A DNA stretch of 64,000 nucleotides, from the NCBI GenBank assembly GCA_027452245.1, contig DAIDGW010000044.1, forward strand, positions 1 through 64,000, read 5' to 3'. The stretch comes from Acidobacteriaceae bacterium (GTDB lineage Bacteria > Acidobacteriota > Terriglobia > Terriglobales > Acidobacteriaceae). The notes under the pieces were generated by a model. It was not told the origin of the DNA. It worked only from the letters and a program-made list of their open reading frames with translations, and did not search any database. The position numbers and the translations under genes are program-made. The stretch's first letter is position 1, and every line of letters begins with the position of its first letter. This document shows, in pieces, positions 3,047 through 9,114 of the stretch.

Positions 3047-6391
<3,345 letters not shown>

Positions 6392-6402
6392 GGCATCGGG
6401 CT

Positions 6403-6480
6403 ATCACCCAATTTTGGGTGATTTTTGATTTATCACCCATTTTTGGGTGATATGTTGAAAAACACCCAAATTTGGGTGAT
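6403..6480 (+). promoter_or_regulatory. Three tandem near-palindromic operators, 29 bp period
   Basis: Three 20-base near-palindromes of form ATCACCCAnnnnTGGGTGAT lie at 6403-6422, 6432-6451 and 6461-6480. Their starts are exactly 29 bp apart. The third is almost perfect (one mismatch) and fills the spacer of the predicted satD promoter, so binding there should block RNA polymerase. The arms CACCCA/TGGGTG are invariant while the centre varies, as expected for a dimeric helix-turn-helix protein. The protein that binds is unknown; the HTH of the downstream SatD protein is the obvious candidate by position. Confidence 0.85.
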
Positions 6481-6483
6481 AAT
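6455..6483 (+). promoter_or_regulatory. Predicted sigma-70-type promoter of satD
   Basis: TTGAAA at 6455-6460 and GATAAT at 6478-6483 are separated by 17 bases. Transcription would begin near 6490. That places any translation start before 6490 upstream of the transcript, which helps exclude a TTG at 6472 that falls inside the third operator. Confidence 0.65.
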
Positions 6484-6501
6484 GCAGGTTCACGTTATTT
6501 C

Positions 6502-7200
6502 GTGCGCGAAAGCGGGGCCCGCTTGGCATCCCATCTCTACATAGGAATCATTGCGGACATGGTCCGGTCCCGCGACCTTTCCCCGGCACGGCGCCGCGCA
6601 ACCCAGAACCGGTTTGCCGATCTCATCAAAAGACTCAACCGGGATTACCGCAAAGCCGTCGCCTCGAAATTCATCATCACCCTGGGAGATGAGTTCCAGA
6701 GCCTGTTGAATACGGCGTCCATCGTTCCGGAAATAATCTGGCGTCTGGAGTCCGATTTCCCCGATCGTGAGCTGAGAGTCGGCATTGGATTGGGCAAGCT
6801 GGATACGCCGATTCAGCCGTATGCCATCAATATGGATGGCCCGGTTCTTCACCGGGCGCGGGAGGCGATCAATGACGCAAAGAGAGCGAAAATTCTCGGC
6901 GGGATATTTCGTGGTTTCGGTGAATGGGATAGCGTGCTGAATGGCCTTGCCGGACTGCTGTGGTTTCAGCGTTCTCAATGGACTCCGGCGCAACGCCGGA
7001 TTGCCAGCCTGCTTCGTTGCGGCATGTCGCAGGCCGACATAGCCGCAAAACTGCGCATCCGGCCTCAGGTTGTATCACGGCAGGTGCAATCGTCCGGCTG
7101 CGTGCAATACGTCGCGGGCGAACGCGCCTGGAGTATGATTCTTCGGAATCAGATCGATCCTTTGCTTCATTCCAAACATGGCCGCGTCAAGTTCCATTAG
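6502..7200 (+). CDS. satD: SatD family protein with C-terminal HTH
   Basis: The protein has 232 residues from the GTG at 6502; a TTG at 6523 is an equally possible start. Both lie downstream of the predicted transcription start. The N-terminal half has the SatD pattern: LYIGIIADMVRSRDL (about 12-26), FIITLGDEFQSLL (57-69), LRVGIGLGKL (91-100) and GPVLHRAREA (113-122). The order Asp ... GDEFQ ... R.GIG.G resembles the palm domain of class III nucleotide cyclases; this is my inference. Residues about 162-198 form a LuxR/sigma-4-like helix-turn-helix (QRRIASLLRCGMSQADIAAK). The stop overlaps the next gene, so the two are coupled. SatD proteins have no settled biochemical role. The operators just upstream suggest autoregulation. 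Confidence 0.8.
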   Translation: MRESGARLASHLYIGIIADMVRSRDLSPARRRATQNRFADLIKRLNRDYRKAVASKFIITLGDEFQSLLNTASIVPEIIWRLESDFPDRELRVGIGLGKLDTPIQPYAINMDGPVLHRAREAINDAKRAKILGGIFRGFGEWDSVLNGLAGLLWFQRSQWTPAQRRIASLLRCGMSQADIAAKLRIRPQVVSRQVQSSGCVQYVAGERAWSMILRNQIDPLLHSKHGRVKFH

Positions 7201-7981
7201 TCCTCAGTTTCTCGTCTGGTGCGAATGCGTTCTGGTTTGGATCGCCTGTTCTTACGGCGTTATGTCCGATCCATTGCGCGGAGAACAGGATGACTCTCAG
7301 GTTCGCTATTGGGCAGTGCTGGGCGCGCGTGGTCTAACGGGTTTCGCTTTGGGTTATCTGCTTTCTCGATCGATCATTTTGGCCGGAGTGTTGCTTGTCC
7401 TCGTCTGTCTCCAGCCGGTTTTCCGCTGGCAAATGCGGCCGAAGAGAGTGGCCGAATTCGAAACTTTCTGGAGTGTGGCGTCCGTTCTGGTTCTATTTGA
7501 GTTGATTCAAGTCCTGGGGTTGAATCCACGCTGGACTCCGCATCGTCCGTCGCCGCCGCAATTAGCTTCGCTCTGCATCATCGCCGGCTGCCTTTTGTTC
7601 GTGTTGCGAGGAGGAACGTATATTGTTCGCGGAATTCTGAAGAAGGCCGGTACATCACCGAGGCGACCCGCGCCCGACAATGAGCTGGATTACGGGAATG
7701 GAATCGACATCAAGGAATACAATCGCGGCCGCCTGATCGGTGAACTGGAAAGAATTGTTCTGGTCATTGTGATTGCCGGCGGCAGCTATGCGGCGTTGGC
7801 GTTCCTGGTCGCGGCGAAAGGCCTGGTTCGCTCCGAGCAGTTTCAAAAGAGCTCGGAATTCGCGGAATACTTCCTGATCGGATCGCTAACCAGCGTTCTT
7901 GTGTCTCTCTGCGTTGGGATCGCGTTGCGGCTTGCGCTCCTGCGGCTGTGGCCGGAACTTCTGAATTTCCGGATTCAGTAG
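7178..7981 (+). CDS. DUF3307-type membrane protein, SatD partner
   Basis: The 267-residue polytopic protein has about six to seven membrane segments (near residues 10-28, 45-75, 90-112, 127-148, 190-214, 232-256). The C-terminal part carries the pattern I associate with DUF3307 proteins found next to satD: a RGRLIGELERI turn followed by a membrane helix ending AFLVAAKGL, then a short SEFAEYFLIGSLTS helix. The ATG lies inside the end of satD (23-base overlap), so the two proteins are made together. The N-terminal half is less conserved. A role as membrane sensor or effector controlled by SatD is inference. Confidence 0.7.
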   Translation: MAASSSISPQFLVWCECVLVWIACSYGVMSDPLRGEQDDSQVRYWAVLGARGLTGFALGYLLSRSIILAGVLLVLVCLQPVFRWQMRPKRVAEFETFWSVASVLVLFELIQVLGLNPRWTPHRPSPPQLASLCIIAGCLLFVLRGGTYIVRGILKKAGTSPRRPAPDNELDYGNGIDIKEYNRGRLIGELERIVLVIVIAGGSYAALAFLVAAKGLVRSEQFQKSSEFAEYFLIGSLTSVLVSLCVGIALRLALLRLWPELLNFRIQ

Positions 7982-8001: not shown

Positions 8002-9009
8002 TCATTGGAGTATCCCGATTTTTGTCCATCGCTGGTATATCAGGAAGACTCCTGTCAGCCCTAGAGTTCCCGCGAGGACTGCGAAGGGAAACTTGATATT
8101 CGGGGAATCCATGACGGCAGGCAGCAGGCCGACGGCCATGGCTGGCGGCATGTGCAGGTCCAAGAATCGCAGCACAGCCATGCTGATCACCATACTGATC
8201 ACGGCCATGGTGATCCCCACCCCAAACGCGTGTTGCGCCAGGAACCCGGTAAGCGCCACGATGAAGCAGGCTATGGGCAATGAAATGGGCCGCTTGGTCC
8301 AGGGACATGTTTCCGGATGGCCGAACATCTCGTAAGCCATGGTCACGAGGGGCGGGAAGATGATAAAACGCAGACCCGAGAAGCGTGCGATTTCCGCCAT
8401 GACCATGACGAATACAAGCAGCACGAGTAGCCACCATCGGCCGCGCGGCGCCGATTCCAAGACGTCGTCAACGTCTGGTTTTGCATTCGGGTCGAGCTTC
8501 TGGGAGTGATACTTGCGCCAGACGATCGAAATTCCACAAAGCACCACGAGCGTTGCCACGATCGATGGCGGATAGAGCCAGCTTTTCACGCCCAAGACCA
8601 GGGGAAGGACTCCCGCGGACATTGCCGGTGCGATATTGGATCGCAACGACCAGATCACAGCCGCACTTGAAGCCACAATCAGCACGGCACTCAGTCCATT
8701 GAATGGCAAGTGCTGCGTCACCAGCGTGCCGATGACGGCGGTGATCGTCGGGGTCAGAATCAGCCTGGCCGGTTGACTTGCCCATTTGCCCCACGGGCGT
8801 AATAGAACGTCATAAGCCAGGGCTCCAAGCTCCGGAAATAGCAGATAGGGAACGCCGGAAACTTGCGCAAGTCCTGTTACGGCAGCGACATAAACGATGG
8901 CCAGAAACTCCGCGGCCAAGCGGCTGCGACGCGTCAGGGAGCCATTGGGAGAGAATGGTCCGATTGCGGCAGGGATTGGCTGTTGCTCTTCAGTAGCCGT
9001 GAGTTTCAT
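8002..9009 (-). CDS. HPP family membrane protein
   Basis: The protein has 335 residues from the ATG at 9009; a TTG at 9057 would add 16 residues. It is strongly hydrophobic with two similar halves, each with about four membrane segments. Both halves carry an HPP-type loop: SNIAPAMSAGVLPLVLG near residue 120 and LHMPPAMAVGLLPAVM near residue 285. HPP family proteins (PF04982) have four predicted helices and include a plant plastid nitrite transporter; substrate here is unknown. The double-length form suggests an internal duplication, with a polar linker in the middle (about 165-190). It converges on the SatD module with only 20 bases between the stops and has no operon partner. Confidence 0.75.
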   Translation of the reverse strand: MKLTATEEQQPIPAAIGPFSPNGSLTRRSRLAAEFLAIVYVAAVTGLAQVSGVPYLLFPELGALAYDVLLRPWGKWASQPARLILTPTITAVIGTLVTQHLPFNGLSAVLIVASSAAVIWSLRSNIAPAMSAGVLPLVLGVKSWLYPPSIVATLVVLCGISIVWRKYHSQKLDPNAKPDVDDVLESAPRGRWWLLVLLVFVMVMAEIARFSGLRFIIFPPLVTMAYEMFGHPETCPWTKRPISLPIACFIVALTGFLAQHAFGVGITMAVISMVISMAVLRFLDLHMPPAMAVGLLPAVMDSPNIKFPFAVLAGTLGLTGVFLIYQRWTKIGILQ

Positions 9010-9114
9010 TCCTGCTTTGCCGGATGGTGGAATGTTTGAAGGGAGCGGTCCCAGCAACTACATCTAAAATTATATCTTGATGTGATTTCAATTACCGCGG
9101 CGGAAATACTTGTT

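Follow-up and report, generated by a model that had tools for sequence, protein, structure and literature searches.

Upstream of satD in the window (the whole stretch of 64,000 nucleotides that was analysed), we observed three palindromes at a step of 29 bp that cover the satD promoter. Arrays that keep this spacing with divergent letters were found at satD loci of many phyla, placed on promoters or directly ahead of a membrane partner gene, and the decay of the gene pair in Streptococcus was one-sided, at the expense of the partner. We consider it likely that the array is SatD's own operator, on which SatD dimers spaced at 28-29 bp repress the satD-partner operon, with binding, repression and partner toxicity being inferred.

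The palindrome array of the window

The three 20-base near-palindromes that a first-pass annotation of the window had described, starting at 6403, 6432 and 6461 and 29 bp apart, were re-found exactly. Putative operator palindromes 1 (6403-6422, core 6405-6420) and 2 (6432-6451, core 6434-6449; 29 bp after site 1) have perfect 8-bp arms, and putative palindrome 3 (6461-6480, core 6463-6478; 29 bp after site 2) has one outer mismatch; no strand was assigned to any of them. The core sequence CACCCA-n4-TGGGTG occurs with 0 mismatches at all three sites, in line with the description of the CACCCA/TGGGTG arms as invariant. The gap of n8 in the search pattern proposed by the same annotation was wrong, as that pattern found 0/3 sites; the correct gap is n4. 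On the forward strand, a -35 element TTGAAA (6455-6460) and a -10 element GATAAT (6478-6483), which shares the last base of core 3, form the better of two sigma-70-like promoter matches within 6300-6700. Their gap is 17 bp and is occupied by palindrome 3, the coordinates agreeing with the earlier placement. The ORF of an upstream tricorn-like peptidase stops at 6391, shortly ahead of the array start at 6403.

Such an arrangement was found at one place in the 64 kb: when triples of identical 6+6 palindromes with equal spacing (<=60 bp) were sought, only the satD array was returned, and no such triple arose in 100 first-order Markov simulations. The exact core has four copies in the window's own 6.2-Mb genome (assembly 97.6% complete), namely the three array sites and one copy inside an ORF (C13). 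When a two-site CACCCA pattern was allowed <=3 mismatches, 1/396 genomes of the phylum matched, which was the same genome.

Spacing, letters and promoter phase across satD loci

Of 542 candidate loci on named genome contigs, we compared the best 80 together with 12 phylum matches, which gave 93 satD loci with the window; because no more than these 80 were kept, the set leans to nearer relatives. satD was present in 12/396 phylum genomes, the window genome included, and in 0 of 14 control genomes. Arrays were scored as three palindromes with one shared half-site and each spacing between 20 and 45 bp (maximum score 42), and were counted on 92 loci, L036 being left out for its short upstream DNA. 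The best three-palindrome spacing was 29 bp in 53/92 and 28 bp in 15/92 loci. At scores of at least 36/42, 27 loci stood at 29 bp, three at 28 bp and none at any other spacing from 20 to 45 bp. Across four controls (far upstream, in-gene, after satD and block-shuffled; 91-93 regions), 2-6 regions were best at 29 bp and 2-6 at 28 bp, and the region after satD gave 3 high scores. Dereplication at 50% identity left 21 loci at 29 bp and nine at 28 bp (30/45). A plain repeat test agreed, with a lag of 29 reaching 14/18 in 33/92 loci and a lag of 58 (the double step) in 18, as against 0/92 far upstream and 0/93 in the gene for lag 29. By a strict count, 53/92 loci carried an upstream array with a score of at least 33 and a best spacing of 28 or 29 bp; 18 were weaker at the favoured spacing, five had the array behind satD, and 16 had no array by these criteria. 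A first scan (300 bp, 20 shuffles per locus) had found the same arrays with many AT-rich loci not above shuffles, and was replaced by the spacing test. The array is a feature of the satD family, and the expectation that it would stand ahead of other satD genes was borne out in the majority of the loci examined, at 28-29 bp and with other letters.

The favoured spacing extended to more distant groups. In Streptococcus, it was 28 bp in 45/53 genomes, 27 in four, 29 in one and another value in three (one of the 53 being the genome of L070 in the first set), and two alphaproteobacterial plasmid loci had scores of 35 and 37 at a spacing of 28 bp. Three haloarchaeal plasmid loci had palindrome pairs at 29 bp, but a three-site score of only 31/42, and in L172 a spacing of 38 bp scored 32, above the 31 at 29 bp. 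By eye, L172 and L173 show two palindrome pairs 29 bp apart, with one perfect and one imperfect palindrome each, and the final palindrome lies directly before the start codon; L175 has perfect palindromes 29 bp apart. Archaea do not use sigma-70 promoters, and the protein is thus a likelier source of the spacing than the promoter. The pair of satD and a DUF3307 gene itself occurs in archaea (L172 and L173, on haloarchaeal plasmids).

The letters of the sites vary by clade, whereas the spacing hardly does: half-sites included CACCCA, CAACC, ATGCAT, TTCGCC, TATGATA and others. The idea that the CACCCA array itself would recur ahead of other satD genes stood for L018 and L019, the two closest satD genes found (among the phylum matches and the 80 top-ranked of 542 candidates), and did not stand in the letter search of 396 phylum genomes. 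That search was abandoned as a way to find arrays, since the letters diverge and it recovered only its own genome. Operator distance correlated with the distance between recognition helices when the N-terminal domain was allowed for (partial r = 0.15, 1/5000 permutations; 53 loci, those with a score <33 or another best spacing being left out). Operator distance correlates no less well with N-domain distance (0.21), so the small helix covariation is only mild support for binding by SatD.

The arrays also keep a phase with the promoters. After loci scoring <35 (39 kept) and promoters <10 bits (32 kept) had been dropped, the -10 boxes of these 32/39 strong-array loci occupied just two phase clusters of the lattice, with 22 and 10 loci (phase resultant 0.42, reached by 46/20,000 random draws). 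The clustering may owe something to sites that look like -10 boxes, and four of the ten loci in the second cluster (L052, L064, L069 and L090) seem, in our judgement, to be centred half a period off. The last site fills the spacer between -35 and -10 in the window, L018, L019, L055, L082, L092 and L093, a position compatible with occlusion. Eleven Clostridia (L035, L041, L043, L044, L048, L051, L056, L061, L063, L068 and L075) have their -35 centre 17-19 bp past the last of three scored sites, on the downstream side and in the same phase; a promoter one step past the last scored site would fit either SatD spreading along the lattice or activation. L048 has, by eye, a fourth palindrome in the promoter spacer. 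Many streptococcal sites (L104-L156) appear by eye to hold TATAAT in mid-palindrome, and operator and -10 box may coincide there.

In four loci (L014, L050, L062 and L077), the array stands between satD and a DUF3307-like partner, with no clear array ahead of satD, and in L039 it stands behind satD with no recognised partner after it; a wider scan after satD gave five arrays with a score of at least 35. As the array immediately precedes the partner in the four loci, the common target looks like the partner, with satD usually included.

SatD, its membrane partner and the decay of the pair

The satD gene (6523-7200, forward strand) encodes 225 aa from a probable TTG start, which was judged by eye; L018 and L019 have a comparably placed TTG that follows a purine-rich stretch. 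Its product passes the curated cut-off of the SatD family profile PF16264 (88.8 bits vs 29) and is the sole PF16264 match in its own 6.2-Mb genome. The predicted structure (pLDDT 95.1; built on an alignment of the window with 73 of the 80 named loci) consists of an N-terminal domain with a palm fold as in nucleotidyl cyclases (approximately residues 1-134; 6523-6924, forward strand), followed by a helix-turn-helix (HTH; approximately residues 155-191; 6985-7095, forward strand) that rests on the model helices and weak PDB HTH matches. The class III cyclase homology fold is present (Foldseek best match 3et6, E = 7.1e-5; VIA Z 10.1 with 4wp9 over 134 residues). GTP cyclohydrolase III (Z 10.5) and GGDEF (Z 9.4) score similarly, so the N-terminal domain belongs to the wider palm fold and not to class III alone. 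D12 in strand 1 and D56 in the turn between strands 2 and 3 are each kept in 92/93 SatD proteins, and R113 in 91/93; the two aspartates were tentatively paired with the cyclase metal aspartates by topology and known motifs, without a residue alignment. Class III cyclases select adenine with a Lys, and SatD has an Ile at the motif-matched place. In a PDB sequence search, the better matches were HTH stretches, and a library of defence models returned weak matches only, which for the window protein fell at its HTH. Phage records searched with one clostridial query gave no SatD match. The satD gene of S. suis is annotated as a DNA-binding protein (PMC12005413).

The membrane partner (267 aa; 7178-7981, forward strand) starts 23 bases inside the end of satD and clusters with DUF3307 partners; its conserved C-terminal core (GRLIGELERI ... 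FAEYFLIGSLTS; 7715-7912, forward strand) was delimited by the partner alignment and a core profile. The window partner matched 0 Pfam families, and so not the DUF3307 profile (PF11750), which 23/35 aligned partner proteins match (best E = 9.7e-24). Members of the partner cluster (BLAST) occur in 80/93 satD loci, and the core profile was matched in 74/84 loci that extend 900 bp or more past satD; the nine loci with <900 bp were left out of this count, and 3/9 of them matched. Among the 14 largest ORF clusters, the partner alone was a same-strand neighbour in >7 loci (an HTH scan of the neighbours was not included). The partner model is all-helical (pLDDT 82.6), and its fold search gave no match (best E = 0.65). 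Short partners of about 90-150 aa, made up mostly of the C-terminal core, occur in L009-L011 (by eye) and in the plasmid loci L174-L176. A phage membrane family assigned to moron and host takeover functions (phrog_2470 of PHROGs) matches 3/4 partners tested, in each case at the N-terminal part of a DUF3307-type partner. An HPP-family membrane gene (8002-9057, reverse strand) is convergent to the satD operon.

Of 118 Streptococcus genomes, 53 have satD, 50 match DUF3307 and 49 have both, and the lone DUF3307 match in a genome lacking satD falls short of the cut-off and contains four stops. Among the 53 satD genomes, both genes are intact in 41 and both are broken in one; satD is intact beside a broken or absent partner in 11 (four absent, seven broken), and the reverse was seen in 0 (11 vs 0, binomial P ~ 0.001, without correction for relatedness). 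Some breaks may be sequencing errors, related genomes are not independent, and two of the 11 (L145 and L147) have a satD match with a late start. The array is retained in the four loci without the partner. Two criteria derived from type II toxin-antitoxin systems, paired genes and a regulator that outlasts its partner, are both satisfied by satD and its partner. According to PMC11323703, satD of S. pyogenes is accessory (178/249 genomes) yet essential, is the only accessory gene to rank within the top quarter for essentiality, and is named together with acid stress. We propose that satD is essential though accessory, and that the partner decays one-sidedly, because SatD represses a harmful partner; this presumes that S. 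pyogenes has the partner, and the toxicity is inferred.

Partners also occur without a recognised SatD. DUF3307 was found in 14/396 Acidobacteriota genomes, 9/14 of them without a Pfam SatD, and in 2/14 control genomes, neither of which has satD; partners without Pfam SatD mean that a partner on its own need not be harmful in every case. In two or more of the nine, a diverged SatD-like gene immediately precedes DUF3307. These are L162 (ORF 733-1432, reverse complement) and L167 (ORF 558-1419), which the Pfam profile misses; by eye, both have palm-like motifs and an HTH-like end, and L167 has a 29-bp array between the genes. The Acidobacteriota DUF3307 loci without Pfam SatD had been intended as a negative control, and three of them were best at 29 bp: two carry the diverged SatD-like gene and the third is L163. 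Two loci gave no ORF.

Proposed regulation of the operon and relation to known systems

In the mechanism that we propose, a SatD homodimer, with a cyclase-like N-terminal domain and a C-terminal HTH, would bind each palindrome, and dimers would step along the DNA every 28-29 bp, at a distance dictated by SatD-SatD geometry, until the promoter is covered. The operon of satD and its membrane partner would then be held low by SatD on the promoter, and in some lineages the array may control the partner alone. The N-terminal domain probably reads or makes a nucleotide that would release or tighten binding, and loss of SatD would derepress the partner, which is likely harmful at a high level. This mechanism has no binding or expression data behind it, and the dimer, the binding, its cooperativity, repression, nucleotide control and partner toxicity are all inferred. 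The first-pass suggestion that SatD's own HTH is the likeliest regulator nevertheless gains support from the arrays ahead of other satD genes and from the array kept in four Streptococcus genomes without the partner, again without binding data.

Several other explanations of the array deserve weighing. The regulator could be an unlinked protein, with SatD acting elsewhere, as SatD binding has not been shown and the recognition-helix covariation is modest. We regard this as very improbable, given that the exact motif is nearly unique to the satD locus in its genome, that the letters shift by clade at a constant spacing, that the array remains beside satD when the partner is absent, and that the partner is the one same-strand neighbour common to >7 loci (14 largest clusters, HTH scan not included). 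A version in which SatD binds the array and activates its own operon draws on the eleven Clostridia with a -35 centre 17-19 bp further downstream than the last scored site; we think it improbable, as the last site fills the promoter spacer in the window and the six loci named above, L048 has its fourth palindrome within the spacer by eye, many streptococcal sites contain TATAAT by eye, and the final site in the haloarchaeal loci L172 and L173 sits just before the start codon, which suits occlusion. The palindromes could also act as RNA hairpins, the first being the terminator of the upstream peptidase gene: site 1 and its T-run (6403-6432) look terminator-like on the forward strand, as does site 3 on the reverse strand, and the array region folds strongly as RNA (z = -7.8). 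This reading is barely tenable, because L018 and L019 have no T-run after site 1, sites 2 and 3 overlap or adjoin the promoter, and hairpins have no need for a fixed 28-29 bp period across phyla.

A further option does not dispute the operator, and would leave it to set dosage only: SatD may also restrain the partner post-translationally, in a Panoptes-like manner that relies on a nucleotide product or on contact. The cyclase-like fold with D12 and D56 in 92/93 proteins and R113 in 91/93, the essentiality of an accessory satD and the one-sided decay of the partner speak for it. We hold it possible and do not favour it, since no SatD activity is known, an Ile occupies the motif-matched place of the adenine-selecting Lys, and the same facts are explained by transcriptional repression alone. 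More doubtful is a widespread guard-like module of bacteria and archaea, in which a single protein, combining a nucleotide-making or nucleotide-sensing palm domain with an HTH that forms a 28-29 bp lattice over its own promoter, would restrain a harmful partner both at the promoter and via the nucleotide, so that nucleotide depletion would release the partner twice.

Autorepression by SatD, if true, would directly answer the published puzzle of satD essentiality in S. pyogenes (PMC11323703), and it predicts that satD becomes dispensable after loss of the partner. The little-studied SatD family thereby gains a candidate regulator, a target and a DNA site that are open to a simple binding test. 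A spacing kept over many phyla with free letters is an unusual operator signature, and may offer a way to find the operators of other diverged regulators.

The sat operon of Streptococcus mutans gave satD its name and is associated with acid tolerance; for this operon, we found no SatD operator or DNA-binding study in the open-access literature. The statement of the first-pass annotation that no operator of a SatD system has been described agrees with our full-text searches of the open-access literature, in which none was recognised. Pycsar systems are cyclase-effector pairs, and SatD resembles them in that its class III cyclase-like fold is encoded beside a candidate effector; unlike them, it carries an HTH, and its matches to defence models are weak only. 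Type II toxin-antitoxin systems are autoregulated two-gene operons with a DNA-binding first gene and palindromes over the promoter. The satD gene and its partner likewise form a two-gene operon with a DNA-binding domain in the first gene and promoter palindromes, the partner is lost while SatD stays, and satD is essential although accessory. They differ in the cyclase-like domain of SatD, in the multi-helix membrane partner, whose toxicity has not been shown, and in the 28-29 bp site period kept over many phyla. In Panoptes (mCpol-2TMbeta; PMC12657230), a constitutive cyclic dinucleotide inhibits an effector with two TM helices and a beta-barrel. The satD partner, by contrast, is all-helical in its model and failed the criterion of such an effector fold, and SatD differs from its Panoptes counterpart in having an HTH and an operator array, with no nucleotide product or defence activity known (PMC12657230). 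What the two share is a palm-fold protein beside a membrane protein and, if SatD is indeed the repressor, a harmful outcome when the first protein is lost (PMC12657230).
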